DNA of 64,000 nucleotides from Bordetella ansorpii. GTDB taxonomy: Bacteria > Pseudomonadota > Gammaproteobacteria > Burkholderiales > Burkholderiaceae_B. The stretch spans positions 496,001-560,000 of the forward strand of contig NZ_FKIF01000007.1 in assembly GCF_900078705.1 (NCBI RefSeq). The letters are read 5' to 3'. Under the pieces are notes generated by a model that was given only the letters and a program-made list of their open reading frames with translations, was not told the origin of the DNA and did no database searches. Positions 22,334-39,442 of this stretch are shown piece after piece (the stretch's first letter is position 1; every line of letters starts with the position of its first letter). The translations under genes and the position numbers were made by a program.

Positions 22334-23614
22334 TCACGCCAACGCCCGTCCAATCCCGGCCAGTCGCCTGACGATGGGATCGATCACTGCAGCACGCGCA
22401 CCCAGTTGCTTGGCAATGGCGCCGAATCGGGGCGCCAATGACAGCATTCCATCGATGATGCCGGACGCCTGCGCAGGTTCGATCCGATAGGAATCGGCCA
22501 GGCGCAGCAGATCGGCCCTTACCGGATCCCTCGAACTTCCGCCGGCAAAGGCAAGCGTGTGATAGCCGCCCGGCCCTTCCATGCAGGTCAGGTCATAGGC
22601 CGGCGAAATCGCCCAACGCTGCCGCCCGTCGAGGATGAAGGCGAAGTTCTTGGCGTGATCATCGCGAACACTCATGGCGGCATTGAAGACTGCACGCGTA
22701 TAAGCCTGCAGGTAATCGCTGTCGGGCACGCCCAAGCGAGCCATCACCTCCGCGATATTGACGTAATCCAGGCCAATCTCGCGATGCGAAAAGTGAATCA
22801 TCCCGCCAAGCGTGTGGCAATGCGTGCGGCGCTGCCCCATCCGATCAAAACGGCGTGTGGCGAACGCGGGCTTCCCATTGATGTCCAGCAAGCAGCTATC
22901 CATCACATCCAGCCCCGCTTCCCGTGCGCACTCCATGTAGGCCTGCTCCAGCACAGGGGCATCCACAGGCTCATCCCTGGCCGCGAACTTGATAAGCCAG
23001 GAGGAAAAGCCCGCAGGCGGAATTCCGGTGGTTACCCTTGCCCGCCGCATGCTTGCGTCCAGATCCAGCATGATCTTTGGCCGAGCGCCTTGAGGGGAAC
23101 TGCCCGCGGTCAAGAGGGCCCTGGAAACGTCTGCCAGCGCACCATCGATCGCGGCCTCCACCTCGTGGCCCAGCGCATCCAGGGAGATCTCACCCTCCGC
23201 GGCGCTCTCCATGGCCGGTTTGAAGCTCAATGCGCCCCACGCCCGGTCGGCGATGAAAGCCAGGCGGGCCGCGGGCGAGATGAAGCGCGGATCGACCTGC
23301 TGCCGGGCGATTGCCTTATCCATCAGGTACCGGCCCCAACCATCAGGCAGGGCGTCATTCAACAGCCCGGGCAAGCCTTCGAAATCCTGAGGAAGATTGC
23401 GCTGCTGCGCGCTCGACCAGACACCCGTGACGGCCGGCAGCACAAGAGGCGACAGACGAAGGTCCTGCGCGATGGCCTGCTCCGTCCATTCAAAGAGAGT
23501 GCGCCGTGCAGAAACCTCATAGTTCAGGCGCCCCACCAGCATGGGCTGCGCCAGGTGATGAGCCCAGACCTGCACCCGATGAATCGGAGACGCCAACCAG
23601 GCTTTATCAAACAT
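22334..23614 (-). CDS. hipA: HipA-family serine/threonine kinase toxin
   Basis: 426 residues, typical of HipA. Visible elements: an N-terminal subdomain, the Gly-rich GSSPQGARPKIML that forms the ATP or activation loop, RRFDR, the catalytic MSVRDDHAKNF (Asp318 as base, Asn323) and the Mg-binding SPAYDLT (Asp341). E. coli HipA phosphorylates glutamyl-tRNA synthetase and causes persistence; the target of this member is unknown. The ATG shares one base with the stop codon of hipB (TGATG), so translation is coupled. All kinase residues appear intact. The end at 22334 is followed by a convergent gene 90 bp away. Confidence 0.9.
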   Translation of the reverse strand: MFDKAWLASPIHRVQVWAHHLAQPMLVGRLNYEVSARRTLFEWTEQAIAQDLRLSPLVLPAVTGVWSSAQQRNLPQDFEGLPGLLNDALPDGWGRYLMDKAIARQQVDPRFISPAARLAFIADRAWGALSFKPAMESAAEGEISLDALGHEVEAAIDGALADVSRALLTAGSSPQGARPKIMLDLDASMRRARVTTGIPPAGFSSWLIKFAARDEPVDAPVLEQAYMECAREAGLDVMDSCLLDINGKPAFATRRFDRMGQRRTHCHTLGGMIHFSHREIGLDYVNIAEVMARLGVPDSDYLQAYTRAVFNAAMSVRDDHAKNFAFILDGRQRWAISPAYDLTCMEGPGGYHTLAFAGGSSRDPVRADLLRLADSYRIEPAQASGIIDGMLSLAPRFGAIAKQLGARAAVIDPIVRRLAGIGRALA

Positions 23615-23991
23615 CAGGCCCCCGCCTTGCCTCTGACTCGCTTATGGACAGACGTCGCCGCCCCACCCATCTCCACGTAGCGTTGGTGGGAATCGAGGTC
23701 AGGGAAGTGAGGGGATTCGAGCATCCGGATGAGGTCGCAGCCATGCCCGAATGCAAGCAACAGCCGCAGAAGGCTTTCACCTGAGACAGGGTCCCCCTTC
23801 TCCACGGCCTTGACGGTCTGCACCGAAACGCCGGCACGCTCGGCCACGTCGGCTTGCCGCCAATCGAACGCCACACGCTGGCGGCGCAGACGTTCGCCGA
23901 TCTGCCGCGAGACCTCCAACATGTTGCTCAGGACCGGTTCGTAGCCCTGATCTACCCGTAAGAGATCGTCTAGTGTCTTCATAGACGGCAT
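23614..23991 (-). CDS. hipB: HipB-like antitoxin, XRE family
   Basis: 125 residues. The Cro/CI-type helix-turn-helix spans residues about 25-80 (IGERLRRQRVAFDWRQADVA, then VSVQTVKAVEKGDPVSG). The N- and C-terminal tails are short and charged. The start at 23991 is chosen because GAGGGGG lies about 5 bases upstream; the longer TTG start at 24018 would overlap the operator. HipB neutralises HipA and represses the operon cooperatively with it. The paired operator half-sites are at 24007-24028. Confidence 0.85.
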   Translation of the reverse strand: MPSMKTLDDLLRVDQGYEPVLSNMLEVSRQIGERLRRQRVAFDWRQADVAERAGVSVQTVKAVEKGDPVSGESLLRLLLAFGHGCDLIRMLESPHFPDLDSHQRYVEMGGAATSVHKRVRGKAGA

Positions 23992-24006
23992 GGTAGCCCC
24001 CTCATC

Positions 24007-24028
24007 AAGGTATTTCAACAGATACCTT
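24007..24028. promoter_or_regulatory. hipBA operator candidate, AAGGTAT-N8-ATACCTT
   Basis: A perfect inverted repeat of 7 bases with an 8-base spacer ends 16 bp upstream of the hipB start. The E. coli HipB operators have the same geometry (TATCC-N8-GGATA), with differently oriented arms. Spacing and location strongly suggest an autoregulatory site. Confidence 0.65.
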
Positions 24029-24159
24029 AGAGGATCAACGCTGACACCAATAGGCGCCAGAAGCGGGATCCGATTGAACGCGACGCCAACGTTCGATCGG
24101 GCTGACAGGACCGGCGTCCGCCCTTCTCTTTCAGCCCCCGCTGCTGCGGGCCATCCTGA

Positions 24160-26367
24160 TCAGAGCGGGACCGCACCCGCCGCAGCGGCCCGCGCCACAT
24201 GCAGCTTGCGGTAGCTGTCGATCAGGCGATGATGCCTGTCCAGCCCCTCCAGCTTCATGCTCGTCGGCGTCAGCCCGAAGAAGCGCACCGCGCCTTCCAC
24301 ACTGCCGATCACCGCGTCCATCCGCTCATTGCCGAACATGCGACGGAAGTTGACCTCGTAGTCGTCCAGTTCCATCTCTTCATCGAGCACCACTTCCAGC
24401 ACGGCATTCATGGCCTGATAGAACAGCCGGCGTTCGACCGTATTGTCGTTGTACTGCAGGAAGGCTTCGACGAATTCCTTTGCCGCCTCGAAGTCCTTCA
24501 AGGCCAGCTGGATCAGCAGCTTCAGTTCGAGAACAGTCAATTGGCCCCAGACGGTGTTCTCGTCGAACTCGATGCCGATCAGCGTGGCGATGTCCAGGTA
24601 ATCGTCCAGGTCATTGGACTCCAGTCGTTCGAGCAACGCGGCCAGGGCGGCGTCGTCCAGGCGATGCAGATTCAGGATATCTTCGCGGAACAACAGCGCC
24701 TTGTTGGTGTTGTCCCAGATCAGGTCGTCCACCGGGTAGACCTCTGAATAGCCCGGCACCAGAATCCGGCAGGCCACCGCGCCCAGTTGGTCATAGGTGG
24801 CCGTGTAGACCTCCTTGCCCATGTCCGCAAGAATGCCGAACAAGGTGGCGGCTTCCTCGCCATTGGAATCCTCTCCCTTGCCGGAGAAGTCCCACTCCAC
24901 GAATTCGAAGTCGGCCTTGGCGCTGAAAAAGCGCCACGACACCAGGCCGCTGGAGTCGATGAAGTGCTCGACGAAATTATGCTCGTCCCTCACCGACTCG
25001 CTGGAGAAGGTGGGCGCCGGCAGATCGTTCAGGCCCTCGATGCTGCGGCCCTGGAGCAGTTCCGTCAGGCTGCGCTCCACGGCCACTTGCAGGCTGGGGT
25101 GCGCGCCGAACGAGGCGAAGACGCCGCCCGTCTTCGGATTCATCAGCGTGACGCACATGACGGGATAGACCCCGCCCAGCGACGCATCCTTCACCAGCAC
25201 CGGAAACCCCTGCTCTTGCAGGGCCTGGATGCCAGCCAGGATGCCGGGGTACTTGGCCAGCACTTCTTGCGGCACGTCGGGCAAGGCGATCTCGCCTTCC
25301 AGGATCTCGCGCTTGACCGCCCGTTCGAAGATTTCGGACAGGCATTGCACCTGCGCCTCGACCAGCGTGTTGCCGGCGCTCATGCCGTTGCTGACGAACA
25401 GGTTCTCGATCAGGTTGGACGGGAAATACACCGTCTGGCCGTCCGACTGCCGCACGAAAGGCAGCGCGCAGATGCCGCGTTCGGTATTGCCAGAGTTGGT
25501 GTCGTACAGATGCGTGCCCAGCAGCTCGCCATCCGGGTCGTAGATGTCCAGGCAGTAGTCATCCAGGATCCCGGCGGGCAGCGCGCCCTTCTTGCCTGGC
25601 TTGAACCAGCGCTCGTCCGGATAATGCACGAACGGCGCGTTGGCGATGTCCTCGCCCCAGAACACGCCTGCGTAGAAGTGATTGCAGTTCAGGCGCTCGA
25701 TGTACTCGCCCAGCGCCGATGCCAGCGCGCTTTCCTTGGTGGCGCCCTTGCCGTTGGTGAAGCACATCGGCGAGTGCGCGTCGCGGATGTGCAGCGACCA
25801 GACGTTGGGCACCAGGTTGCGCCACGAGGCGATCTCGATCTTGATGCCCAGCGCCGCCAGGATGCCCGTCATGTTGGCGATGGTCTCCTCCAGCGGCAGG
25901 TCCTTGCCGGGGATGAAGGTGCGGGCCTCGGCATCGGGCCTGATCGTCAGCAGCGACTGCGCGTCGGCGTCCAGGTTCTCGACCTCTTCGATGACGAACT
26001 CGGGGCCGGCCTGGACCACCTTCTTGACGGTGCACCGCTCGATCGAGCGCAGGATGCCCCGGCGATCCGCCTCTTCGATGTCCGTCGGCAACTCGACCTG
26101 GATCTTGAAGATCTGTCGATACCGGTTTTCCGGATCGACGATGTTGTTCTGCGACAGGCGGATGTTCTCGGTCGGGATATTGCGCGTGACGCAGTAGAGC
26201 TTCACGAAGTACGCGGCGCACAATGCCGAGGACGCCAGGAAATAGTCGAACGGCCCCGGCGCCGAGCCATCGCCCTTGTAGCGGATGGGCTGATCCGCCA
26301 CGACGGTGAAGTCGTCGAACTTCGCTTCGAGACGCAGCTTATCGAGAAAATTGACTTTGATTTCCAT
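24160..26367 (-). CDS. ycaO: OsmC domain / YcaO domain fusion protein
   Basis: 735 residues. Residues 1 to about 140 are an OsmC/Ohr-like domain (LDKLRLEAKFDDFTVVADQP, SALCAAYFVKLYC with two Cys). The YcaO domain follows and carries all three ATP/Mg motifs: SALGEYIER, QCLSEIFER and RSLTELLQ. The C-terminal 150 residues are helical and acidic, with repeat-like leucine spacing. YcaO enzymes use ATP to activate amide backbones; E. coli YcaO (without this N-terminal OsmC domain in the same form) is linked to RimO-dependent methylthiolation of ribosomal protein S12. No precursor peptide or partner dehydrogenase was seen nearby. Start 26367 gives the MEIKVNFLDK family N-terminus. Confidence 0.88.
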   Translation of the reverse strand: MEIKVNFLDKLRLEAKFDDFTVVADQPIRYKGDGSAPGPFDYFLASSALCAAYFVKLYCVTRNIPTENIRLSQNNIVDPENRYRQIFKIQVELPTDIEEADRRGILRSIERCTVKKVVQAGPEFVIEEVENLDADAQSLLTIRPDAEARTFIPGKDLPLEETIANMTGILAALGIKIEIASWRNLVPNVWSLHIRDAHSPMCFTNGKGATKESALASALGEYIERLNCNHFYAGVFWGEDIANAPFVHYPDERWFKPGKKGALPAGILDDYCLDIYDPDGELLGTHLYDTNSGNTERGICALPFVRQSDGQTVYFPSNLIENLFVSNGMSAGNTLVEAQVQCLSEIFERAVKREILEGEIALPDVPQEVLAKYPGILAGIQALQEQGFPVLVKDASLGGVYPVMCVTLMNPKTGGVFASFGAHPSLQVAVERSLTELLQGRSIEGLNDLPAPTFSSESVRDEHNFVEHFIDSSGLVSWRFFSAKADFEFVEWDFSGKGEDSNGEEAATLFGILADMGKEVYTATYDQLGAVACRILVPGYSEVYPVDDLIWDNTNKALLFREDILNLHRLDDAALAALLERLESNDLDDYLDIATLIGIEFDENTVWGQLTVLELKLLIQLALKDFEAAKEFVEAFLQYNDNTVERRLFYQAMNAVLEVVLDEEMELDDYEVNFRRMFGNERMDAVIGSVEGAVRFFGLTPTSMKLEGLDRHHRLIDSYRKLHVARAAAAGAVPL

Positions 26368-26622
26368 GGTGAAACTCTGATAGTGGCGCGGCGGGCGCCT
26401 GTACGTATTCCGGTGCGCGGGGCAGTCTGACTGTGGGCCGGCGCGCGCTCCCCGCACGATGACGCCGGCATCGCATTCCAACCAAGAGGGCTGAATCCCG
26501 CTTGATACAGGACTCAGCCCGGTCTCGTTCAGCCTTGGCTCTCGAACGTCATGGATGCGTTCATGCAGGGCTTCATGGCCGATCCACCGGCGAATGCTCG
26601 ACGTCGGCGCGGGTCAGGGCGC
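26368..26622. other. intergenic region, no gene recognised
   Basis: Together with the decayed repeat that follows, this forms a 404-bp stretch between the OsmC-YcaO gene and the SDR gene. Short open frames exist but none has a recognised domain. It must contain the OsmC-YcaO promoter. Confidence 0.5.
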
Positions 26623-26780
26623 GATCTGCGCGGCGTCGGCGTCTCCGACGCTTATTGTCGGTCAGGACGCATCTTAGCGCGCTCCGACACGACGGGTCAC
26701 GGCCACCTGCGGCGAAGCGTTCCGCCGCCCGGCATCCAGAACGGAACCGCGATGCCGCCATACCGGCTGATCTAGTCAAG
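26623..26780 (-). pseudogene. decayed, internally deleted copy of the toxin module at 33.8-34.5 kb
   Basis: Two segments match the accessory block near 34 kb. Positions 26647-26715 match the sequence right of the IS66 element (33842-33905; for example CTTATTGTCGGTCAGGACGC against CTTATTGTCGATCAGAACGC). Positions 26719-26780 match 34439-34502 inside the toxin gene. Read on the minus strand, the second segment encodes ISRYGGIAVPFWMPGGGT, aligning with ISRYGGVADPFWTLGGGT of the intact toxin, with a stop codon where the toxin has Glu just before. About 530 bp of toxin sequence is missing between the two segments. The copy also retains the GCGCGGCGTCG target sequence used by IS66 in the other copy. 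Confidence 0.7.
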
Positions 26781-27539
26781 TACAACTCCGGAAACTTCCT
26801 CGCAGATGCGGATGAGGCGATCCTGTAGCGTGGCATCCCGTGCCTGCGGGTTCGCCGCCATGCGCTTCAGGTGATAGAAGTATTCGCCCGAGACGTCGGC
26901 GTTGCCGTCCTCGGCGGCAGCAAGCCAGGCCTGAGTCCGGTGCGCTTGATCCATATCGTCCGGCGCGCCTGGCCCGCCCATCCTTGTCGGCACCCAGCCC
27001 GGCTCCAAGGCATTGGCGCGTACCTCGGGCCAGCCACGCGCCACGGCGAAGGCCAGCATGGCATCGTGCAGCTTGCTTTCGGCATAGGCGTCCGAGCCGT
27101 TCCAGCGGCGCTTGCGCCAGAGGATGTCGTCCAAGTTGGCCTGTGCATGGCGGTGCATGCCGGAGCTGAGATAGACCAGCCGCTTCGGCCGCTCGATCAG
27201 CGCCGTCAGTAGGTAGGCCGACAGCGTGTTGATCGCAAACACATGCGGCAGCCCATCGCCCGTCAAGCGGTGCCCTTCACGGTAGCCGACTGCCGCGTTG
27301 TGGATCACGGCGTCGAAGCGGCCCAGCGCGTTGACCTGTGCCGCAATGTCTTTGGCGCCAGCGATAGTTTCCACATCGCCGACGACCACGGCTTGCGCTT
27401 GCGGCAATTCGCGCAGGGCGTCCTCCGCGCGGCTGGCATTGCGGGCGTGAAGCACAACTTCGTGTCCTTGCTGTACCAGCAGTTCGGCGGCCATCAGGCC
27501 AAGGCCGGCGGATGAGCCGGAAATGAAAATGCGAGACAT
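26772..27539 (-). CDS. SDR family NAD(P)-dependent oxidoreductase
   Basis: 255 residues. The cofactor loop is GSSAGLGL (first Gly of the usual TGxxxGxG kept as G, Thr replaced by Ser), followed by the Arg of HARNASR, which favours NADP(H). The IHNAA replaces NNAG, and catalytic YAESK is present with Ser in YLSSGMH. The group resembles the retinol-dehydrogenase/WWOX-like SDRs that act on lipophilic carbonyls. It is the last gene of the amidohydrolase-MFS-SDR operon, 54 bp after the MFS gene. Its 3' end overlaps the decayed toxin repeat by a few bases. Confidence 0.85.
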   Translation of the reverse strand: MSRIFISGSSAGLGLMAAELLVQQGHEVVLHARNASRAEDALRELPQAQAVVVGDVETIAGAKDIAAQVNALGRFDAVIHNAAVGYREGHRLTGDGLPHVFAINTLSAYLLTALIERPKRLVYLSSGMHRHAQANLDDILWRKRRWNGSDAYAESKLHDAMLAFAVARGWPEVRANALEPGWVPTRMGGPGAPDDMDQAHRTQAWLAAAEDGNADVSGEYFYHLKRMAANPQARDATLQDRLIRICEEVSGVVLD

Positions 27540-27593
27540 GGTTTTCTCCTCGGAAGCGTCGGCGGACGGCGCCCGGCCGACGATGCGTGATGT

Positions 27594-28793
27594 TCAAGGT
27601 TGCGCAGTGCGGGAGGTGGCGGCGAGCACGGCTCCCATCAACGCGCAGGCCGCGCCGAACAGGTAGACGGAGGCATAGCCGAAACTCCCGGCGATGGCTC
27701 CTGCGGCAGGCCCCGAGATGCCGTAGGCGATGTCGAGAAAGGCGACGAATGCGCCCATCGCGCTGCCGCGGTTGGCCGGCGGTACTCGCTTGAGTGCTTC
27801 GACGCCCAGCGCCGGGAACACCAGCGCGCAGCCGAGACCCGTCACCAGCGCGCCGGCGAGCGCCGCCCATGCATTCGGCGCAAGCCACAACATGGCCTGG
27901 CCGACCGCTTCGACCACCAGCGACCACACAGCGACCCGGTAGCCGCCCATGCGATCCGGCAGATGCCCCAGCACCGCACGCACGAAGATGAAGCCGACAC
28001 CAAAGGCCGTCATCACCAGGCCGGCATGGCTCCAGTGACGTGCCGCGAAGAACAGCGACGCGAAAGCGGTGAGTCCAGACAATCCGGCCCCTTGGAGCAT
28101 CAGGCCCACACCTTCGCGCCAGATCCGGCCGACCACTCGGTAAAACGGCAGCCGCGCGCCGCTAGGCGACAGATAAGACGCTGACCCCCACGCGATCAGC
28201 ACGGCAAGCGCGGGAGCGGCGATACAAGCGATCATGGCGGCAGCGAGGCCGTAGCCCTGGTACAAGGCCATGCCGACCGGCGCGCCGATCGACAGCGCGG
28301 CAAACATGGCGATACCTGTCCAGGACATGGACATGCCGGCACGCCGCGGGCCTACGGAGGCAATCGACCAGGAAACGCAGCCGGTCACGAACTGGCTTTC
28401 GCCGAAACCGGCCGCCAGGCGGCCGGCAATGACAATCGCCAAGCTGGCCGCAGGCGATATGCCGGGCATGGCAGCCACCCAGTAAAACAGCCCCGCGAGA
28501 GCCGAGACAGCCGCCCCTTGCAGAGCGGAACGCTTTCCCCCTTGCTGATCGGTCAAGCGGCCGGCATAGCCGCGCGTCAGCACCGTCGCCACGAACTGGA
28601 TGCCGATCACCAGTCCGACCACGAGGTTGCTGTAACCGAGACGATCGTGGACGAACAGGGGGATAACCGGCAGCGGCAGGCCGACGGCCAGGTAGCCGCA
28701 GAACAGTGCGGCGATGATGCCCGTTGCCGGGCGGGACAAGTGCGCAGCAGCGGCATCGGCCTGCGCCGCCCGCTTCATGGCGGGAGCTTGCAT
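27594..28793 (-). CDS. MFS transporter (YhhS/YfcJ-like)
   Basis: 399 residues with about 12 membrane helices. The MFS signature between helices 2 and 3 is visible as RGYAGRLTDQQGGKRSAL, and its counterpart in the second half as VRAVLGHLPDRMGGYRVAV. YhhS/YfcJ-type members are drug or sugar-related exporters of loosely defined range. GGAGG lies 5 bases upstream of ATG 28793. It follows the amidohydrolase by 62 bp, so it could import the amidohydrolase substrate or export its product. Confidence 0.88.
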   Translation of the reverse strand: MQAPAMKRAAQADAAAAHLSRPATGIIAALFCGYLAVGLPLPVIPLFVHDRLGYSNLVVGLVIGIQFVATVLTRGYAGRLTDQQGGKRSALQGAAVSALAGLFYWVAAMPGISPAASLAIVIAGRLAAGFGESQFVTGCVSWSIASVGPRRAGMSMSWTGIAMFAALSIGAPVGMALYQGYGLAAAMIACIAAPALAVLIAWGSASYLSPSGARLPFYRVVGRIWREGVGLMLQGAGLSGLTAFASLFFAARHWSHAGLVMTAFGVGFIFVRAVLGHLPDRMGGYRVAVWSLVVEAVGQAMLWLAPNAWAALAGALVTGLGCALVFPALGVEALKRVPPANRGSAMGAFVAFLDIAYGISGPAAGAIAGSFGYASVYLFGAACALMGAVLAATSRTAQP

Positions 28794-28855
28794 GACAGCC
28801 TCCGGTGAAGTGATTGAAAACGAGGCGGCCCGGCGTCGCGGGCCGCCCTAAGCCT

Positions 28856-30181
28856 TTACGCAGCCGCGCCGAAGAGATCGGCGCGGTAGCCGCTCGCTTC
28901 GATGAGGTAGTCACGCGAAGCGGTGACATCCGCATTGAGCCTGCCCAGGTCGATGCCGAGCAGTTGGCCGTTACGCTTGCGCAATCGACCCGCCACCATC
29001 ACGGTGTCCACATCGGCGCGTTCGACCGCTTGGACGATCGTGCCGACGGCGTTGGTCACGGGAAAGACCGCGATGCCGCTGGTGCGAACCATGATGATGT
29101 CGGCTTGCTTGCCGGGCGTCAGCGTGCCGATCTGGCCGTCCAGACCGGCGGCACGGGCACCGTTGACCGTTGCGGCCTTCAGCACGTCTTCGACGCGGAT
29201 CGGCGCGGGTGCATCGGCTTCGCCACGGAAACGCCGATAGCGCATCGCCGAACGCTGCTGCCCGAACAGGGCGTGCATTTCTCCGAACATGTCACTGCCG
29301 AATGCCGTATCGAGGTCGATGCCGAGCGCCGGGGCCAGGCCATGATCCACGGCCTGCTGATAGGCAAAGGTCTCGTCGTCAAAGCCGAACAATGCATCCG
29401 AGCGCGGGTTGATCGTGATGTTCACGCCGGCATCGGCCAGCAGCTTCCACGTTTCCTGCGGCACGCGCGTGCAGTGGTTGAAGATGTTGTGCGTGCCCAG
29501 CACCCCCGGCTTGGCGAACTGCGGGCCGAGCTTGGCCAGGTCGCCGATGAATTCGGTCAGGATGCGCATGTCGAGGCCGCGCGCGACCTTCCACCAGTCC
29601 AGATCGAGCTGGCCGAACAGGCCCACCCGCACGAGGCTGCCCGCGTTGTTCCAGCCGTGCGCCAAGCGTTGCAGGTCGCCCGGCAAGTGGGCCGCGGAAG
29701 CCTTCTTGTCCATCGCCGCCCCGACCATGTGCAGCGCCCGAATGCCGGTGGTTTCCAGCGCATCGAGCGCGGCATCGGTGTGCTCGGGGCTGCGCGAGCC
29801 GTGGCAGGCGTCGATGATCGTGGTGATGCCGGCGTCCAGCGACGCGGCGGCCGTGAGCTTCGTGCTCAGGTACATGTCCAGCGGACGGTAGTGGGCGCCC
29901 AGCTGTTCGGCGACCACATCGATGTAGGCGAACAGATCGTCCACGTTCGGCATCATGCGGCGCATCACGCCGAGCCACATGTGATGGTGGGCATCGACCA
30001 GGCCCGGCATGACGATGTGGCCGGCGGCATCGATGACCTGGGCGTCGTCGGCTTGCAAGGCCGGGCCGACCGCAGCGATACGGCCATCCTGAACCAGGAC
30101 ATCGCCGACGGCCAGATTGGGAAGCTTGGCATCCAGCGTCAGGATGGTTCCGCCCTTGAAGAGCGTGCGTTGCGTATTCAT
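28856..30181 (-). CDS. amidohydrolase family protein (cytosine/SAH deaminase-like)
   Basis: 441 residues. The metal-dependent hydrolase fold is shown by MPGLVDAHHHMW (first two metal-binding His), GTHNIFNHCTR (third His region), the INPRSDALFGF segment and the GIDLDTAFGSDMF Asp, plus a C-terminal small beta sandwich with LTPGKQADIIMV. This pattern fits the ATZ/TRZ-SAH deaminase subfamily that hydrolyses amino or halogen groups from aromatic N-heterocycles. Precise substrate unknown. Start 30181 has GGAG upstream; the frame start at 30247 does not. First gene of the operon opposite the LysR gene. Confidence 0.88.
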   Translation of the reverse strand: MNTQRTLFKGGTILTLDAKLPNLAVGDVLVQDGRIAAVGPALQADDAQVIDAAGHIVMPGLVDAHHHMWLGVMRRMMPNVDDLFAYIDVVAEQLGAHYRPLDMYLSTKLTAAASLDAGITTIIDACHGSRSPEHTDAALDALETTGIRALHMVGAAMDKKASAAHLPGDLQRLAHGWNNAGSLVRVGLFGQLDLDWWKVARGLDMRILTEFIGDLAKLGPQFAKPGVLGTHNIFNHCTRVPQETWKLLADAGVNITINPRSDALFGFDDETFAYQQAVDHGLAPALGIDLDTAFGSDMFGEMHALFGQQRSAMRYRRFRGEADAPAPIRVEDVLKAATVNGARAAGLDGQIGTLTPGKQADIIMVRTSGIAVFPVTNAVGTIVQAVERADVDTVMVAGRLRKRNGQLLGIDLGRLNADVTASRDYLIEASGYRADLFGAAA

Positions 30182-30295
30182 GGAATGCTCCTTGGAAGTG
30201 AGGTGGACCGGTCGCCACGAAGCCTGCTCAGTGGTTCTTCCCCCCAAGGAAAACCGCGGCTTGTGTCGGCACGGTTGTCACGATAGGTTGCGCAC

Positions 30296-30349
30296 CATCT
30301 TTGATAAAGGTAGATTCATTCAAATTATCTTTGCTGAAAATCAAAGATG
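30296..30349. promoter_or_regulatory. LysR operator candidate: CATCTTTGAT ... ATCAAAGATG
   Basis: A perfect 10-bp inverted repeat (30296-30305 and 30340-30349) separated by 34 bp, with a third half-like copy ATCTTTG at 30327-30333. It lies between the divergent amidohydrolase operon and the LysR gene and ends 8 bp before the LysR start, overlapping its Shine-Dalgarno. Such spaced half-sites suit tetrameric LysR binding and autorepression. Confidence 0.65.
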
Positions 30350-30357
30350 GAGGGGTG

Positions 30358-31269
30358 ATGAGTTTCGATGGGCGATTGCTGTCAGGAATGAGCGTGCTGG
30401 CTGCCGTGGTGGAGGCAGGCAGCTTCAGCCGCGCGGGCGAGGTGCTGGGGCTGTCGGCTTCAGGGGTGAGCCGGTCGATCTCCCGGCTGGAAGAAAGACT
30501 GGGAGTGCGGCTGCTGGATCGCACGACGCGCACCCTGCACCTGACGAGCGACGGGAAAAGTCTGTATGAACGCGCCGCGCCGCACCTGGAAGGCATCGAG
30601 GAAGCGGCCAGCTACGTGTCCGGCGCCGCCGTCACGGTGCGCGGGACATTGCGGGCCAGCGTCAATCCGATCTTTGCGCGATACGTCCTGGCGCCGAAGC
30701 TGCCGCTATTGCGCGAGCGTCATCCCGACCTCGAACTGACCGTGCTGCAGCAACCAGACGTTGGCGATCTGGTCACGGAAGGCATTGATGTCGCGGTGCG
30801 CTTCGGGCCGCAGCCGCCGTCAACGATGACCTCCCGGCTGCTGCTCCAGACGCGGGTACTGACGGTCGCGTCGCCGGCATATCTGGCGCGGCATGGCCGG
30901 CCCAAGCGACCGGAAAAACTCGTCGATCACGAGTGCATCCAATACATCGATCCTCGGCGCGGCAAGCCATTCTCATGGGAGTTCCATCGCGGCCGGGAGG
31001 TGTTGCCGGTAGAGACGCAAGGCCATGTCACGACGACCGACGTAGACCTGATGGTTCAAGCGTGCGTGAGCGGCGCTGGTGTTGCCCAGGTGCTTGCCCT
31101 CAATGTCTCGCACCTGATGGCCAGCGGGGCGCTGATCGAGTTGTTCCCCGAGTGGTCAGGCGAGACTTATCCGTTGTATGTCACTCGCCCATCACGGCGA
31201 CTGGCGCCCGCGGCAGTCGAAGCCTTCCTGGATTTCTGCACGGAAATCTGCGCGGACTTCGAGAGTTGA
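30358..31269 (+). CDS. LysR-family transcriptional regulator
   Basis: 303 residues: helix-turn-helix at about 5-65 (MSVLAAVVEAGSFSRAGEVL, then RLLDRTTRTLHLT), effector domain with LPLLRERHPDLELTV and VSGAGVAQVLALNV. The start at 30358 has GGAGGGG directly upstream and corresponds to the family N-terminus; the frame is open from 30301. It is divergent from the amidohydrolase-MFS-SDR operon and has strong inverted repeats in front, making that operon its likely target. Confidence 0.9.
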   Translation: MSFDGRLLSGMSVLAAVVEAGSFSRAGEVLGLSASGVSRSISRLEERLGVRLLDRTTRTLHLTSDGKSLYERAAPHLEGIEEAASYVSGAAVTVRGTLRASVNPIFARYVLAPKLPLLRERHPDLELTVLQQPDVGDLVTEGIDVAVRFGPQPPSTMTSRLLLQTRVLTVASPAYLARHGRPKRPEKLVDHECIQYIDPRRGKPFSWEFHRGREVLPVETQGHVTTTDVDLMVQACVSGAGVAQVLALNVSHLMASGALIELFPEWSGETYPLYVTRPSRRLAPAAVEAFLDFCTEICADFES

Positions 31270-31401
31270 CCGTGCGGATAAGGAAAGAACACCGACCACA
31301 TGGCCCCCACTACTTGGGAGGCCGACATTCTAAAAATCCGCGCATTCGAAATGATCAAAAGCGCGGGCTTAAGGTTAGCGCGGCTTATGGAGCGATTTGC
31401 G

Positions 31402-31409
31402 CGGCGTCG
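31402..31409. repeat. 8-bp target site duplication, left (CGGCGTCG)
   Basis: CGGCGTCG directly precedes the left inverted repeat of the IS66 element and is repeated exactly at 33824-33831 after the right end. Eight bases is the duplication length of the IS66 family. Confidence 0.9.
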
Positions 31410-31482
31410 GTAAGCGCCCGGCGAACACATATTGAGCGCGTGCGTTGTCCTCGATAGTGTCCACCACTTTTAGGTGGACACC

Positions 31483-31821
31483 ATGTCGAAGACAGAATTA
31501 GCACCGGTGCCTAAGCGCCGGTCTTATCCGAAGGCGCTGAAGGCGCAGATCGTGGCCGAGTGCAGGCAGCCGGGGATATCCATCGCCGGGGTAGCGCTGT
31601 CGCACGGCGTGAACGCGAACCTGGTGCATAAATGGATCCGCCAGGCCGAGCGGCAGATCGGTTTGGTGTCAACGTTCGTGCCGGTTGCGTTGCCCGCGGT
31701 GTCTTCGGCGGGTCGTCATATCGAGATCCGCTTGTCGCGCGGCCCCGTGCAAGCGACGGTGCAATGGCCCGTGAGCGAGGCGGGTGCCTGCGTGGCGTGG
31801 CTACGTGAGTGGCTGCGGTGA
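31483..31821 (+). CDS. tnpA: IS66 TnpA (OrfA) helix-turn-helix protein
   Basis: 112 residues. The N-terminal region RRSYPKALKAQIVAECRQPG and VNANLVHKWIRQAE is the transposase_8-like helix-turn-helix of IS66 OrfA. ATG 31483 has AGGTGG upstream; GTG 31474 is less likely. It is required together with TnpB for IS66 transposition, role uncertain. Its stop codon overlaps the GTG start of tnpB in a GTGA. Confidence 0.9.
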   Translation: MSKTELAPVPKRRSYPKALKAQIVAECRQPGISIAGVALSHGVNANLVHKWIRQAERQIGLVSTFVPVALPAVSSAGRHIEIRLSRGPVQATVQWPVSEAGACVAWLREWLR

Positions 31822-32153
31822 TCCGTGTCGATGCGATCTGGCTGGCCACTGAGCCGCTGGACATGCGTGCGGGCACCGAGACGGCACTGGCGCGGGTAGT
31901 CGCGGTGTTCGGCGCGGCGCGCCCGCATCACGCCTATTGCTTCGCCAACCGGCGGGCCAACCGCATGAAGGTGCTCGTGCATGACGGGATCGGCGTGTGG
32001 TTGGCCGCGCGCCGGCTCAACCGCGGCAAGTTCACGTGGGCCCAGGCCATCCATGGCCCGCATATGGCGCTGGACGGTGATCAGTGGCAGGCGCTGGTGC
32101 TGGGCTTGCCCTGGCAGCACGTGGGTGCGGCCGGTGCGATCTCTGTGCTGTAG
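31818..32153 (+). CDS. tnpB: IS66 TnpB (OrfB)
   Basis: 111 residues with the IS66 OrfB pattern: IWLATEPLDMRAGTETALA near the start, YCFANRRANRMKVLVHDGIG in the centre and RLNRGKFTW. The GTG at 31818 overlaps the tnpA stop as GTGA, which implies translational coupling; a GTG nine bases earlier is the alternative. Function in transposition is accessory. Confidence 0.9.
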   Translation: MIRVDAIWLATEPLDMRAGTETALARVVAVFGAARPHHAYCFANRRANRMKVLVHDGIGVWLAARRLNRGKFTWAQAIHGPHMALDGDQWQALVLGLPWQHVGAAGAISVL

Positions 32154-32215
32154 CGCCTTGCAATCGGGCAAGACGCCAATACCGCCGCTACGCGCCCTGC
32201 GGCATACTGGCGGGC

Positions 32216-33787
32216 ATGAGTACCGCTTCCCTGGATCACCTTGACGCGCAGCAACTGCGGGCGTTGGCCGAACGCCTGATGGGCGAGATGGCCGTGCGCG
32301 ACGAGCAACTCGCGAAGTACGATGCGCAGATCGCCAAGCACGACCAGGTTCTGCACTTCAAAGACACACACATCGAGCAGCTCAAGCAGGAACTGGCGCT
32401 GTACAAGCGCTGGCGGTACGGCAAGCGCAGCGAGCAACTTAACCCGGCGCAGGCGAGCCTGCTGGAAGAGACGATGGATGCCGACATGGCCGCCATCGAA
32501 GAGGAAGTCGAGGCGCTGAGCCAGGCGATCTCGCCCAAGCCAGCCGAACCGCAGGCGCCGCGCCGCAGGCGGCTGCCGCCCGAGTTGCCGCGTACCGACA
32601 TCCATCACGAACCGGCGTCCACGACGTGCCGCTGTGGCTGCGGCCTGAAGCGCATCGGCGAGGACGTCAGCGAGAAGCTGGACTACCTGCCTGGTGTCTT
32701 CTCGGTCGAGCGCCACATCCGAGGTAAATGGGTGTGCGAGCAGTGCGAGACGCTCACGCAGGCGCCGGTACCCGCGCAGGTCATCGACAAGGGCATCCCG
32801 ACAGCGGGGCTCCTGGCGCAGGTGCTGGTGGCCAAGTTCGCCGACCACCTTCCGCTATACCGCCAGGAAGGCATCTTTGCACGGGCTGGCCTGGCGCTGC
32901 CGCGTTCGACGCTGGGCGAGTGGGTCGGCGTGTGCGGGCTGCGGTTGCAGCCGCTGGTCGATGCACTCAAGGCCGAGGTGCTGGGCAAACCGGTGCTGCA
33001 TGCCGACGAGACACCGGTGCAGATGCTCAAGCCGGGCGCGGGCAAGACGCACCGCGCCTACTTGTGGGCGTACACACCGACCTCTTACGACGACCTGCGC
33101 GCAGTGCTCTATGACTTCGCGCCCAGCCGGGCCGGCGAGCATTGCCGCACGTTCCTGGAGGACTGGCGCGGCAAGCTGGTGACCGATGACTATGCCGGCT
33201 ACAAGGCGGGGTTCGCCGCTGGGATCACGGAGCTGGGCTGCATGGCGCACGCCAGGCGCAAGTTCCACGACCTGCATGCGAGCAACCAGAGCCAGATCGC
33301 CACGCAGGCGCTGGAACTGTTCGGCGCCTTGTACGGCATAGAGCGGGATGTGGCCTACCTGCCTGCCGATGCGCGCAGGCAGAGACGGCAGGACCACGCC
33401 AAGCCGATCACCGAGACCTTGCATCGATGGCTGATCGCGCAACGTCAAAGGGTGCCCGACGGCTCGGGTACTGCACGTGCCATCGACTACAGCCTCAAGC
33501 GCTGGGAGGCGCTGACGCGCTATCTCGATGACGGCGACGCGCCGATCGACAACAACTGGGTCGAGAACCAGATCCGGCCCTGGGCGATCGGGCGTTCGAA
33601 CTGGCTGTTCGCGGGGTCACTGCGCGGCGGGCAGCGTGCGGCCGCCATCATGAGCCTGATCCAGTCGGCGCGACTGAACGGCCACGATCCGTATGCCTAT
33701 CTGAAAGACGTTCTGACCCGGCTGCCCACGCAGAAAAACCACCAGATCGCCGAACTGCTGCCGCATCGCTGGCAACCTGCTGCGTAG
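32216..33787 (+). CDS. tnpC: IS66 TnpC transposase (DDE)
   Basis: 523 residues. N-terminal coiled coil (ERLMGEMAVRDEQLAKYDAQ and following), a zinc-finger-like CRCGCGLK with a second WVCEQCET pair, then the DDE catalytic domain: first Asp in VLHADETPVQML, second Asp in LVTDDYAGYK and Glu in NNWVENQIRPWAIGRSNWLF. C-terminal IS66 domain complete. No frameshift. It is the catalytic transposase of the element. Confidence 0.95.
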   Translation: MSTASLDHLDAQQLRALAERLMGEMAVRDEQLAKYDAQIAKHDQVLHFKDTHIEQLKQELALYKRWRYGKRSEQLNPAQASLLEETMDADMAAIEEEVEALSQAISPKPAEPQAPRRRRLPPELPRTDIHHEPASTTCRCGCGLKRIGEDVSEKLDYLPGVFSVERHIRGKWVCEQCETLTQAPVPAQVIDKGIPTAGLLAQVLVAKFADHLPLYRQEGIFARAGLALPRSTLGEWVGVCGLRLQPLVDALKAEVLGKPVLHADETPVQMLKPGAGKTHRAYLWAYTPTSYDDLRAVLYDFAPSRAGEHCRTFLEDWRGKLVTDDYAGYKAGFAAGITELGCMAHARRKFHDLHASNQSQIATQALELFGALYGIERDVAYLPADARRQRRQDHAKPITETLHRWLIAQRQRVPDGSGTARAIDYSLKRWEALTRYLDDGDAPIDNNWVENQIRPWAIGRSNWLFAGSLRGGQRAAAIMSLIQSARLNGHDPYAYLKDVLTRLPTQKNHQIAELLPHRWQPAA

Positions 33788-33823
33788 GCTGAACCGTCAA
33801 GGGCGTGTTCGGCAGGCGCTTAC

Positions 33824-33831
33824 CGGCGTCG
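33824..33831. repeat. 8-bp target site duplication, right (CGGCGTCG)
   Basis: Exact copy of 31402-31409, directly adjoining the right inverted repeat of the IS66 element. Confidence 0.9.
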
Positions 33832-33909
33832 ACATTTTCGAGCTTATTGTCGATCAGAACGCATCTGAGCGCGCTCCAACACGACGGGGAATGACCACAT
33901 GCGAAGAGG

Positions 33910-34566
33910 CTACAGCTCGCCCAGAAAATCCCCGACCACGGCTACGCAATGATCGAAGCCGGGCGTGTACTCCAGCGTAGCGATGGCCTCGAACGCGGCG
34001 CGCAAGCTGGCATGCGGCGCTCGGATCTGGGACAGGAATGCCTCCCGATGGCGTAGAAGGAATGGCGTCGCTGCCAGAAGCTGCCGAGGCTCGCGCTCGA
34101 TCACCAGCGCAAAGTCGAAGAGATCGCGCGCCGTGACCCGATCGCCACGGTGGTACATCTTTTTTGCAATGATTTCAGCGGCGGTCTCTACTTTCACTGC
34201 GCGACCGCCGATATCCCAGATGTCCCAAGCGTCGTCCAGAAGATTGGGCGCGGCGACGAAATCGACCTCACCTTCCTCGAACTGGAGTTTGACGAAGGCA
34301 CCCGGTTGTTCGGTGTAGTCCTGCGTTAAATCCGCGGCTGTGTCGCTCAACCGCGGCGAGACAAAACCGAGGTACTGCGGGTCAGGCACGAAGATGTCGA
34401 TGTCTTTGCTCAGCCGATGACAGTAGCGGAACATCAGCACCGTTCCGCCGCCCAGCGTCCAGAACGGGTCCGCGACGCCGCCATACCGACTGATCTCGTC
34501 AATCAGCGCCAGCGCCCGCGGGAACAATTTCTCCCAAGGACCTCTGGGCAGTGTTTCGGGCTTCAT
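33910..34566 (-). CDS. nucleotidyltransferase toxin, AbiEii/AbiGii-like
   Basis: 218 residues. Nucleotidyltransferase motifs are visible: TLGGGTVLMFRYCHRLSKDI followed by DIDIF (catalytic Asp pair), EVDFVAAP (third acidic residue) and AKKMYHRGDRVTARDLFDFA, a motif typical of AbiEii-type toxins. Such proteins add nucleotides to tRNA or other targets and act in abortive infection or as toxins. ATG 34566 overlaps the antitoxin stop in ATGA; a GTG at 34572 is the alternative. The antitoxin-first order is normal. A decayed relative exists at 26719-26780. Confidence 0.85.
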   Translation of the reverse strand: MKPETLPRGPWEKLFPRALALIDEISRYGGVADPFWTLGGGTVLMFRYCHRLSKDIDIFVPDPQYLGFVSPRLSDTAADLTQDYTEQPGAFVKLQFEEGEVDFVAAPNLLDDAWDIWDIGGRAVKVETAAEIIAKKMYHRGDRVTARDLFDFALVIEREPRQLLAATPFLLRHREAFLSQIRAPHASLRAAFEAIATLEYTPGFDHCVAVVGDFLGEL

Positions 34567-35054
34567 GCCCACAGCGTGCGACGATGCACGGACAACGATC
34601 CAGCCAACTTCGCCACATTGCGCCAGATTTGCTTTGGCGGCTGATGTGTATGCGAGGCAGCCTCCTCCACGGCCATCACGACGACAGGCACGGGCGCCTC
34701 ATCCAGCAAGTGCGTCAGGTGCGGAGCAAATGAAGCAGGCACTACACCGCTCGCCAGGGCCTGCTCAAGCGTCTCGGGCGCCAGTTCTTGTGCATAGCTG
34801 ACACTGGCGGTCTTGGCCGCCATCCACAGGCCGCGCTTCTTGCGCCGCGCCTGGGTATCCAGCTTCGGACTGTCGAGGCCCAACACCGCCATGACCTGAC
34901 CCACCCGGTTGACGCCCAGATCGCTCAGGGTGCCGTTCTCCAGGCCGACCAGGGTCTGACGAGACAGGCCGCTGAGGTGCGCCAACTGCGCTTGGGACAA
35001 GCCCAGATCAGAGCGCCGGACCCGCACGGCATGGCCGATATCGATGAGGTTCAT
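34563..35054 (-). CDS. XRE-family antitoxin
   Basis: 163 residues. A Cro/CI helix-turn-helix occupies residues about 8-62 (VRRSDLGLSQAQLAHLSGLS and LVGLENGTLSDLGVNRV). The C-terminal region of about 95 residues contains APETLEQALASGVVPASFAP, probably the toxin-binding part. It is four bases overlapped with the toxin gene and has an inverted repeat (35073-35098) 18 bp upstream as likely operator. The combination XRE-AbiEii-like toxin defines a two-gene module; its specific target is unknown. Confidence 0.82.
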   Translation of the reverse strand: MNLIDIGHAVRVRRSDLGLSQAQLAHLSGLSRQTLVGLENGTLSDLGVNRVGQVMAVLGLDSPKLDTQARRKKRGLWMAAKTASVSYAQELAPETLEQALASGVVPASFAPHLTHLLDEAPVPVVVMAVEEAASHTHQPPKQIWRNVAKLAGSLSVHRRTLWA

Positions 35055-35070
35055 GGCAGATAGCAAGCAA

Positions 35071-35202
35071 CTAAAATGTCTGATATTTTTGACATATTAC
35101 CCCTAGCCTACTCTGACCAGCAAGAACCGGATCCGCCGGCCCGCCTTCAACACGCTTGATCGCCTCGATGATCTGGCTATCCGTGAACTTCGATCGCTTC
35201 AT
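35071..35202 (-). pseudogene. IS3-family OrfA relic
   Basis: The frame begins MKRSKFTDSQIIEAIKRVEG, which is the N-terminus of IS3-family (IS407-group-like) OrfA helix-turn-helix proteins, then diverges after about 30 residues and ends at 35071. Upstream, AGTAGAATTCTC followed by a similar inverted segment resembles the leader of such elements. Only the left end is left; the rest was lost, probably when the toxin-antitoxin segment was joined here. Confidence 0.7.
35073..35098. promoter_or_regulatory. antitoxin operator candidate, AAAATGTC-N10-GACATATT
   Basis: Inverted repeat with one mismatch over 8-base arms and a 10-base AT spacer, 18 bp upstream of the antitoxin start. Location fits an autoregulatory site for the XRE antitoxin. 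It overlaps the degenerate end of the IS3 relic. Confidence 0.5.
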
Positions 35203-35276
35203 CTGTAGAACTCCTCAATGAGAGAATTCTACTTCTGACTCCCTGGGCTTGGCCGGACGCTTATCGTACGTCAGTA

Positions 35277-36065
35277 TCAAAACAGCCGGTTCAATAAAGT
35301 GGGCTCAGACGATTTAAGTCGTTCCAGCATGTTGTTGACATAGAACATATCAGGTGAAGCATTTACTGGCAGTACGACAACTGTATAGTCCGGCTGAGCT
35401 TTATTTAACATGAATGTCACCAACCCTACCCCATGAATACTGCACAGGGACTTGAGCCGATTCATATCATCGCTGCTCGTAGAGTTTGGAACGACTATGT
35501 AGCTTCTGTGCGAAAAAAGGCGATATGCCACGGCTTGCCCAAATGCCACAACGGGCTGATTGGGCACGGCCTTGATTTCCGCAGTCACGATCTGTGGCTC
35601 AAACTTGAAAATATCCTGAGCCCGTGGCTTCAGGACGCCTATGACATCCGGCGTGCCCCATTTACCGCCAAGGCTACTTCCTCCAAGCGAAGCTGCCACG
35701 GTAGCTTCGTCATTCTCTTCAAGCCACTCGGCAAAACTGCTATAGAAGTCCTGCTCGGTAAGGGTACCTAGCTCAGGCTCATCAGCCTGAACACGAATGG
35801 TCTCCGTCTCATGCTCTTTGGCGCTAGCAATGGCATCATCCGCCTCAACGAATCTAGCTAGTTGATACGTACCCCGCGCGACCTTAACGATTTCGCGGGT
35901 ACGCGTTATCAGCAGATTATGGATGCCGCCGTGAATGCTATTGCGCGGCGTGTCCGGCGCCTCTTCTCCTACTGCTCGAAGTAAATCCGACCAGCGAATT
36001 CCTTGCGGGCTGGATTCCAGCACCCGCATGGCACGCTCGTGAATCTGCTGACGATTCAGTTTCAT
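35277..36065 (-). CDS. winged-helix plus PD-(D/E)XK nuclease-like protein, hypothetical
   Basis: 262 residues. Residues 1-72 resemble a winged helix found in restriction-associated proteins (IHERAMRVLESSPQGIRWSD, then ITRTREIVKVARGTYQL). The remaining part has the order of a PD-(D/E)XK fold: Glu104, Asp140 in WGTPDVIGV, Glu163-x-Lys165 in TAEIKAV, and Gln177 in FGQAVAYRLFSHRSYIVVP. Base composition is visibly more AT-rich than the surrounding core genes, indicating acquisition. It has no methyltransferase partner in the window. It may be a defence nuclease or a degraded-system remnant; I do not recognise a named family with certainty. Confidence 0.65.
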   Translation of the reverse strand: MKLNRQQIHERAMRVLESSPQGIRWSDLLRAVGEEAPDTPRNSIHGGIHNLLITRTREIVKVARGTYQLARFVEADDAIASAKEHETETIRVQADEPELGTLTEQDFYSSFAEWLEENDEATVAASLGGSSLGGKWGTPDVIGVLKPRAQDIFKFEPQIVTAEIKAVPNQPVVAFGQAVAYRLFSHRSYIVVPNSTSSDDMNRLKSLCSIHGVGLVTFMLNKAQPDYTVVVLPVNASPDMFYVNNMLERLKSSEPTLLNRLF

Positions 36066-36085
36066 ATTTTTGTGTTTACGTACTG

Positions 36086-36108
36086 CGTCCCCTGGGCCTC
36101 AGGGGACG
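36086..36108. other. perfect hairpin CGTCCCCTG-GGCCT-CAGGGGACG
   Basis: A 9-bp perfect stem with a 5-base loop lies between the nuclease-like gene and the end of guaA. No T-tract follows on either strand, so it is not a standard rho-independent terminator. It may mark the island boundary or act as a weak terminator. Confidence 0.5.
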
Positions 36109-36158
36109 ATCAATGAAAAGACGCTTCATACCTAGAAGTTGTGTTAAGAAGGCGCCTG

Positions 36159-37751
36159 TCACTCCCACTCAATCGTCGCCGGCGGCTTGCTCGACACGTC
36201 GTACACCACCCGATTGATCCCACGCACTTCATTGATAATCCGCGAAGACACCTTCGCCAGCAACGCATGCGGCAGCGGCGCCCAATCCGCCGTCATGAAA
36301 TCGAACGTCTGCACGGCACGCAGCGCCACCACGTACTCATACGTACGCCCATCGCCCATCACCCCCACCGACTTCACCGGCAGGAACACCGCAAACGCTT
36401 GCGACGTCATGTCGTACCAGCTCTTGCCGCTGTTCTCATCGATGGTGCTGCGCAGCTCTTCGATGAAGATCGCATCCGCCCGGCGCAACAGATCAGCGAA
36501 TTCCTTCTTCACTTCACCCAGGATGCGCACGCCCAACCCCGGACCCGGGAACGGATGGCGATACACCATCGACGGCGGCAGGCCCAGCGCCACGCCCAGC
36601 TCGCGCACTTCATCTTTGAACAGTTCGCGCAGCGGTTCGAGCAGCTGCAGGTTCAGCGTATCCGGCAACCCACCCACGTTGTGGTGCGACTTGATGGACG
36701 TGGCCTTGCCCGTCTTGGCGCCGGCCGATTCGATGACGTCGGGATAGATGGTGCCCTGGGCCAGCCACTTGGCGCTTTTCAGCTTGCCCGCCTCGGCCTG
36801 GAAAACCTCGACGAACTCGCGGCCGATGATCTTGCGCTTGGCTTCGGGGTCGGCCTGGCCGGCCAGCTTGCCCATGAACTGCTCGGTGGCATCGACGTGA
36901 ATGATCTTCACGCCCATGTTCTCGGCGAAGGTCTGCATGACCTGCTTGCCTTCGTCCAGGCGCAACAGGCCGTGGTCGACGAACACGCAGGTGAGCTGGT
37001 CGCCGATGGCCTTGTGGATCAGCGCGGCGGCAACGGACGAGTCCACGCCCCCCGACAGGCCCAGGATGACCTCGTCGGCGCCGACCTGCTCGCGGATGCG
37101 GGCGACGGCTTCCTCGACGTAGTCGGGCATGTTCCAGTCGCCCGTGCATCCGCAGATGTCGTTGACGAAGCGGCCCAGCATCGCCTTGCCCTGGACGGTG
37201 TGCGTGACTTCGGGGTGGAACTGCACGGCATAGAAGCCGCGTTCCTCGTCGGCCATGCCGGCGATGGGGCACGACGGCGTGGAAGCCATCAGCTTGAAGC
37301 CCGGGGGCAGCTCGGTGACTTTGTCGCCGTGGCTCATCCAGACCTTCAGCATGCCGTGGCCTTCGGGCGTGGTGAAGTCGGCCAGGCCTTCCAGCAGCTT
37401 GGTGTGGCCCTGGGCGCGCACTTCGGCGTAGCCGAATTCGCGGTGATCGGAATAACTGACCTTGCCGCCCAGTTGATGCGCCATGGACTGCATGCCGTAG
37501 CAGATGCCCAGCACCGGCACGCCCAGCTCGAACACGGCGGCGGGCACGCGCAGCGAGCCTTCGTCGTAGGCCGAGGCATGGCTGCCCGACAGGATGACAC
37601 CGCGCACGCCGGCTTCTTTCTGGGCACGGACGAAGTGGTCGTCCACGTCGCCAGGATGGATCTCGGAATAGACGCCGGCCTCGCGGACGCGGCGGGCGAT
37701 CAACTGGGTAACTTGCGAACCGTAGTCCAGGATGAGAATGCGCTGGTGCAT
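36159..37751 (-). CDS. guaA: GMP synthase (glutamine-hydrolysing)
   Basis: 530 residues, normal length. N-terminal class I glutamine amidotransferase with catalytic Cys in [10 protein letters not shown] and His-Glu in VQFHPEV; ATP pyrophosphatase domain with the PP-loop [13 protein letters not shown]-terminal dimerisation domain ending in PPATIEWE. It converts XMP to GMP with glutamine and ATP. It lies 86 bp downstream of guaB on the same strand, the classical guaBA order. The final codons (GATTGAGTGGGAGTGA on the coding strand) are the sequence used as attachment site by guaA-integrating islands, and an accessory block lies directly beyond. Confidence 0.97.
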
Positions 37752-37837
37752 GGTGACTCTGCCGGTTGTAAATGAAGCGCACCGGCCAGAACGTTTGTCC
37801 TGCCGGTGCGTGGGTATTGCGTAAGGATAGACTGGGA

Positions 37838-39442
<1,605 letters not shown>

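Follow-up and report, generated by a model that had tools for sequence, protein, structure and literature searches.

The gene that directly follows guaA in Bordetella ansorpii raises the question of whether it encodes a defence nuclease able to work by itself, and whether its relatives do the same. An earlier note, made from the letters of the window (the whole stretch of 64,000 nucleotides), had described the product as a stand-alone winged-helix protein carrying the residues of a PD-(D/E)XK core, acquired at the edge of an island. The observation was confirmed. As for its interpretation, the fold, the motif and the acquisition held, while the family as a whole is not stand-alone.

A low-GC gene behind guaA

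The features of the locus are as follows.

36159..37751, minus strand: guaA; the ORF lies just behind its 3' end, in the same direction
36086..36108, no strand: perfect 9-bp inverted repeat CGTCCCCTG-GGCCT-CAGGGGACG, between guaA and the ORF, read from the sequence
35277..36065, minus strand: ORF with ATG start, encoding a 262-aa winged helix plus PD-(D/E)XK nuclease-like protein
~35140..35202, minus strand: relic of an insertion-sequence OrfA (MKRSKFTDSQIIEAIKRVEGG), between the ORF and the AbiE pair
34563..35066, minus strand: HTH protein, presumed AbiEii partner (Pfam HTH_3, E=2e-7)
33910..34572, minus strand: AbiEii-family toxin, a neighbour in the same extra segment, separate from the ORF (Pfam PF08843, E=3.8e-16)

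The start codon of the ORF is 93 nt from the end of guaA, and its GC content (0.517) is lower than that of guaA (0.643) and of the whole window (0.659), as had been claimed. The claimed island edge is supported by comparison with congener G079, where the gene matching window 24160-26481 comes directly after guaA; the ~9.6 kb between guaA and the next shared gene are extra in the window. This extra segment also carries an IS66 transposase, and no methylase was recognised in it. The OrfA-like relic, which we take to be of IS3 type, resembles a stretch at one other listed place of the genome (contig C6) and in several congeners; it lies on one side of the ORF with guaA on the other, in agreement with the earlier note. 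Acquisition is borne out by the extra segment and by the presence of the gene in 1 of 268 genomes of the source family, namely the window's own. In congener G089, an AbiE pair (92 and 94% identical) is found ~8.5 kb from guaA with other genes between, indicating that the guaA 3' side is variable in the genus. Scans for promoters and terminators found no more here than in shuffled sequence, and Rfam had no match in 24000-38000.

Several other genes of these genomes were noted by reading. Window 24160-26481 (minus strand) encodes 773 aa with an OsmC-like start and an apparent YcaO-like fusion, and is common to G079; window 22334-24018 (minus strand) reads as an HTH plus HipA-like pair that is also near guaA in G079. 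A 2220-aa frame (L077:2934-9596) stands between guaA and the AbiE pair of G089. The window's genome (G000) has, on contig C6 (L100), a cluster of type I-like genes, one of them HsdM-like (PF02384); by reading, the cluster also holds HsdS-, Fic- and DUF1016-like proteins and an integrase.

The nearest relative of the window protein (L001, 87%, on a contig titled Reyranella) is encoded by a gene that likewise follows guaA, and an AbiU2-family gene comes next. The inverted repeat of 36086..36108 was not seen by eye upstream of this gene. Here, a 48-nt guaA 3' end repeats behind the gene (2831-2878 and 3757-3804, 90% identical, 926 nt apart), with one gene and no integrase between the two ends. 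A second guaA 3' end was sought near the window's segment and is absent, so the window has one such site. Judged from its ends, the guaA-framed unit of L001 (2831-3804) is possibly a non-autonomous single-gene element. For GIsul2, an integrase specific for guaA is described as mobilising units bounded by sites of this kind (PMC9376610).

Predicted fold and invariant residues

The ORF contains the following domains and residues.

35856..36065, minus strand: winged-helix domain, residues 1-70 (H5-18, H25-34, H41-54, E59-63, E66-69; AlphaFold2 model, block pLDDT 81-92)
35361..35768, minus strand: predicted PD-(D/E)XK core, residues 100-235 (AlphaFold2 model and structure alignment)
35754..35756, minus strand: E104, the glutamate opening the first core helix, invariant in 29/29 rows and in L034 and L099
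35646..35648, minus strand: D140 of the PD motif (in GTPDV), invariant in 29/29 rows and in L034 and L099
35571..35579, minus strand: E163-I164-K165, the E-x-K (in AEIK), with E and K invariant in 29/29 rows and in L034 and L099
35523..35537, minus strand: Q177-x-x-x-Y181 (Q177 in FGQAVAY), in the helix after strand 3, invariant in 29/29 rows

An AlphaFold2 model built with 22 rows, including viral relatives, had a mean pLDDT of 85.9 and a pTM of 0.69, with a lower-confidence linker joining the winged helix to the core. It superseded a first model, made with 17 close relatives, in which residues 1-70 alone were resolved (mean pLDDT 53). The core elements (H104-117, E123-126, E141-145, E158-164, H171-181, E187-193, H198-211, E214-218, E228-231) come in an order that fits the alpha-beta-beta-beta-alpha-beta core of the PD-(D/E)XK superfamily. 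D140 is modelled just ahead of strand 2, E163 and K165 end strand 3, and Q177 and Y181 are in the following helix. The superfamily is marked by a D where strand 2 begins and by a (D/E)-x-K in strand 3; here, these are D140, E163 and K165.

When Foldseek candidates were aligned with VIA-align, the best solved match was PaqCI, a restriction enzyme of type IIS, with a Z of 11.4 (3.8 A over 141). Next came 3dnx with a Z of 11.1 (3.4 A over 133) and 2vld, whose title is that of a repair endonuclease, with a Z of 9.0 (2.5 A over 100). Foldseek against the PDB was weak when taken alone: nothing was listed clearly under E<=0.001, the best being AF2093 at 0.001. Among viral structure models, 17 matched at E<=0.001, four of them named MmcB-like. 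DpnI and Shedu are absent from the structure-match lists shown, an absence that excludes nothing. As a structure prediction, the PD-(D/E)XK fold of the nuclease domain is firm, and the unrelated fold that the earlier note had named as its refutation did not appear.

For the N-terminus, VIA-align gave Z 7.5-9.2 to the winged helices of cullin, Rpa2, RNAP delta and Rok, values that are partly uninformative by the tool's own account. RNAP delta, presumably a HARE-HTH protein, scored Z 7.7 among many other winged helices. Profile-profile comparison (hhalign) of HARE-HTH with the winged helix gave a probability of 72% in local and 26% in global mode. The window protein had no Pfam match to HARE-HTH (PF05066), and the best relative (1 of 8) reached 14.1 bits against a gathering threshold of 25.9 bits. 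The winged-helix domain of the model has the three helices listed above only, with no extra helix.

E104, D140, E163, K165, Q177 and Y181 are invariant in all 29 family rows, at identities down to ~37%; the alignment has 42 invariant positions of 262, gaps ignored. The earlier note had given D140, E163-x-K165 and Q177 in this order; its positions are exact, and none of these residues varies in the 29 rows, variation among homologues being the other refuting result it had named. E104 and Y181 are invariant residues beyond those it listed. By this invariance, read from sequence alignment, the motif match is not one by chance. In the remote relatives, the positions of Q177 and Y181 are occupied by E and H in L034 (23% identity) and by Q and N in L099.

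Across 21 pairs from seven close sequences, pN was 0.08-0.17, while synonymous sites were saturated in 20 of the 21, indicating purifying selection. dN/dS could be computed for the one remaining pair (L003-L021), where it was 0.05.

Relatives and their restriction partners

All matches of the window protein in Pfam, NCBIfam, PADLOC and PHROGs were below threshold. The relatives tested were likewise without a significant model (8 in Pfam, 5 in PHROGs); there was no significant PADLOC match for five family members, L099, L034 and one neighbour, and no significant NCBIfam or Pfam match for L099 and L034. As four libraries have no model for the family, their scans miss it even inside restriction operons. 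A weak PADLOC match of L030 to AbiEi (E 0.007) was confined to the winged helix, and no kinship with the AbiE pair was drawn from it.

Relatives were found at 19 loci in genome contigs, with one gene split across two contigs, and further in a plasmid, in whole genomes and in viral contigs (four loci, then one more: L027, L028, L029, L030 and L048). No relative was found in 50,697 phage records searched at E 0.01 or in two viral scans using closer queries, and a search of viral contigs for relatives of L034 found none. The gene was also found in 5 of 398 genomes, counting the window's own and a fragment. The similarity of L099 to the family is remote (E=0.024 at Z=5 million). The domain architecture, active-site conservation, purifying selection, rarity and horizontal spread of the family are results of computation.

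The 29 rows leave out L019, which is the C-terminal part of the L006 gene, two rows that are the window itself (L020 and L022), two fragments (L026 and L090), a weak match (L092, E 9e-4), the remote L034 and L099 and, as repeats, L031-L033, L047, L049-L060, L085, L087-L089 and L093. Neighbouring genes were listed by ORF length and checked by tblastn, Pfam, NCBIfam and codon composition; domain tests were run on one representative per similarity group, and the other neighbours were assigned by tblastn. ORF calling by length alone produced antisense artefacts (e.g. at L015 and L018), and neighbours were re-tested.

Restriction genes adjoin the homologue in 15 of the 29 rows, a sample biased by being gathered by similarity. 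The description "stand-alone, without a methylase" is therefore right for the window copy and wrong for the family. The neighbours are of type I in nine rows (L006, L007, L008, L010, L014, L015, L016, L018, L030), of type III in four (L004, L009, which has a Res-like protein only, L011, L012) and Eco57I- or N6-type methylase proteins in L021 (the pSA1 copy of Novosphingobium resinovorum) and L096. The restriction gene is immediately adjacent except in L010, where a 235-aa frame intervenes. In nine loci (L007, L009, L011, L012, L014, L015, L016, L018, L021), the homologue starts -4 to 29 nt past the stop of its partner, which is an hsdS, res or methylase gene. In L004, L030 and L096, it comes first and the restriction genes follow; in L006, it is divergent. 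An HsdR or Res of their own is present in most of the partner systems in view.

No restriction neighbour is seen in 13 rows, four of them viral contigs: the window, L001, L002, L003, L005, L017, L023, L024, L025, L027, L028, L029 and L048. L025 and L029 begin at a contig end, leaving one side only in view, and L048 has two apparent DNA methylases ~3.6 kb away. One row (L013) is cut by the contig end on the relevant side and is undecidable. A constant methylase partner, as expected of a type II system, is contradicted by partners of three kinds or none, and constant hsd company, as expected of a type I subunit, by type I genes beside only 9 of the 29 rows. The computations thus give repeated coupling to differing restriction operons, and partnerless copies in bacteria and viral contigs. 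The remote relative L099 precedes an MmeI-like enzyme.

A more even sample was a draw of 397 genomes around G668, which was itself included by design (L017). Ten genomes matched, seven with a full-length type, two remote and one a fragment; one of the seven is split over two contigs and was taken as the L006 genome by its split pattern. Six of the seven full-length genes were beside a restriction gene (6/6 without G668), and five beside a methylase. Matches to two methylase families numbered 113 and 233 in a set of 99 genomes from the draw (mean 3.19 Mb), from which ~1.3% of positions would lie within 6 kb of one. The restriction association is real in the genomes around G668.

A tree of the 29 rows, labelled type I, type III, Eco57I-like, alone or undecided, had 8 changes of label, the least possible being 4. 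Shuffled labels gave a mean of 13.9 changes, and 0 of 200 shuffles were as low as 8, indicating that relatives tend to share a partner type and that swaps are few. The well-supported branches require no fewer than 3 changes for each of type I and type III, and no fewer than 4 for alone. The most distant group consists of L023, L024, L025, L027, L028 and L048; no restriction neighbour is seen in these six rows or in L029, and the tree program warns of long branches in this part of the tree. The restriction link may therefore be a habit of the alphaproteobacterial clade.

Some neighbourhoods hold further genes of possible interest. L027 adjoins an integrase (PF00589) and is behind genes read as lysis genes. 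L048 comes directly before an AbiH gene, on a contig with genes read as terminase; this part of the viral contig (L048:5783-10653), with AbiH, a 754-aa 4Fe-4S protein and the two apparent methylases, looks like a defence cluster. An AlwI-type identity for the 754-aa protein is not claimed, as Pfam gave 4Fe-4S sites only. In L008, L015, L016 and L018, similar proteins of ~500 aa (77-98% identical) follow the type I operon and the homologue. The one in L018 has a Schlafen/AlbA_2 domain. A tyrosine integrase comes next in L015 and L018, and the proteins are perhaps a further add-on of the same operon.

Proposed function and relation to known systems

We consider it probable that the protein is a self-contained winged-helix defence nuclease that serves both by itself and as an addition to restriction operons. 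The N-terminal winged helix (residues 1-70) would bind or read DNA, and the C-terminal PD-(D/E)XK domain would cut it. Metal would probably be bound by E104, D140, E163 and K165, with an accessory motif formed by Q177/Y181. We infer that the DNA cut is invading DNA. Occurrence of the same protein with three kinds of partner and with none suggests that it acts by itself, and a portable add-on defence against foreign DNA is its most likely role.

How host DNA is spared is the least certain step. Tentatively, and by analogy, the winged helix may recognise modification or another feature of foreign DNA, so that the protein would complement restriction as an embedded type IV system does. A winged helix that reads modification is made plausible by DpnI-like winged helices, by HARE-HTH-REase proteins beside modification systems and by a type IV system in a type I operon of Vibrio. 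On the same analogy, dependence on DNA modification is plausible; the protein sequence has no feature telling modified from unmodified DNA. A broader proposal, which we regard as somewhat unlikely as a whole, is that of a partner-changing nuclease family: a single gene that defends autonomously, in prophages also against rivals, that has repeatedly been joined to type I, type III and Eco57I-like operons to give a second layer, and that travels in part as a guaA-framed unit moved by the integrases of other elements.

The tight spacing in nine loci would also suit a backup or guard effector that is silent while its partner restriction system works, and is unleashed by a phage anti-restriction protein that blocks this system or by DNA broken by restriction. 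The same logic has been proposed for BREX auxiliary nucleases (PMC12839542). However, 13 of 29 rows, including the window and the most distant group, have no nearby partner (in a one-sided view for L025 and L029), and partner types change, so that no conserved interface is evident. This explanation is unlikely.

Lower still is the probability of an ordinary sequence-specific restriction nuclease, self-protected by a neighbouring methylase. The best fold match is to the type IIS enzyme PaqCI, many copies are beside adenine-methylase genes, and G000 does have one HsdM-like gene, although on another contig. Yet most partner systems already have an HsdR or Res, and there is no methylase neighbour in 13 of 29 rows and none recognised in the extra segment of the window.

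Just as improbable is that the winged helix is a Rok-like xenogeneic sensor, aiming the nuclease at A+T-rich foreign DNA instead of at modified bases. The Rok winged helix was the only sequence match below E 0.01 among solved proteins (E 0.003 and 0.007), and Pfam WH_Rok matched 4 of 8 relatives below threshold. However, winged helices are widely alike, these matches are weak, and distant members (L023-L025, L048) are in genomes that look, by eye, less GC-rich. The least probable reading of all, to which 2vld and the four MmcB-like viral models point, is that of a nuclease like MmcB or NucS that repairs DNA or processes its ends, given the patchy distribution (1/268, and 5/398 with the window's own and a fragment counted), the foreign GC, the island, plasmid and viral locations and the restriction neighbours.

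If the self-contained nuclease that we favour gives protection by itself, its gene is a compact means of defence. If it depends on a partner or complements one, its occurrence with partners of three kinds, and without any, allows a clean test of why extra nucleases are found in classical restriction systems. Two points that a specialist may not expect are the change of restriction partners and the single-gene copy framed by guaA ends.

In the literature searched, no paper on this nuclease family came up, and none mentioned COG2958. L099 carries the pattern that we presume to be that of HrgA/COG2958 (W-x-x-PD, E-x-K, QAV), but L099 is tied to the family by its E of 0.024 only.

Shedu (SduA) is described in PMC12839542 as a PD-(D/E)XK nuclease with variable N-terminal sensors, and is alike in joining such a nuclease to an N-terminal sensor. 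The family proteins had no match to it in Pfam or PADLOC, with which a remote kinship is still compatible. DpnI-like type IV enzymes read N6-methyladenine with their winged helices, according to PMC11037411. DpnI, FcyTI and Psp4BI combine the same two domains and, as in part of the family, are described as seldom having a methylase nearby. Their domain order is given as PD-(D/E)XK-wH, whereas in the family the winged helix comes first, and the sequence searches listed no chain of DpnI.

TgvAB of Vibrio is described as a GmrSD-type IV system that lies within a type I operon and complements it (PMC11411939). It resembles the family in being extra defence genes in or beside type I operons that also occur without them, but consists of two proteins with DUF262/DUF1524, another nuclease fold.

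Of a like kind are the HARE-HTH plus REase fusions, reported as auxiliary effectors beside Dnd and BREX (PMC10853773, PMC12839542). They share a winged-helix-type reader and a restriction-endonuclease fold near DNA-modification genes. Unlike them, the family is below the Pfam HARE-HTH cut-off, its model has no extra helix, and its partners are type I, type III or Eco57I-like systems or none, a separation drawn from published descriptions. HARE-HTH proteins found in 11 of 249 genomes were compared as well; most read as GIY-YIG fusions and one as Mrr-like, and none was taken as a relative of the nuclease domain. Compared by description with these surveys, the family is unannotated and new, while its kind has already been outlined by work on HARE-HTH-REase proteins.
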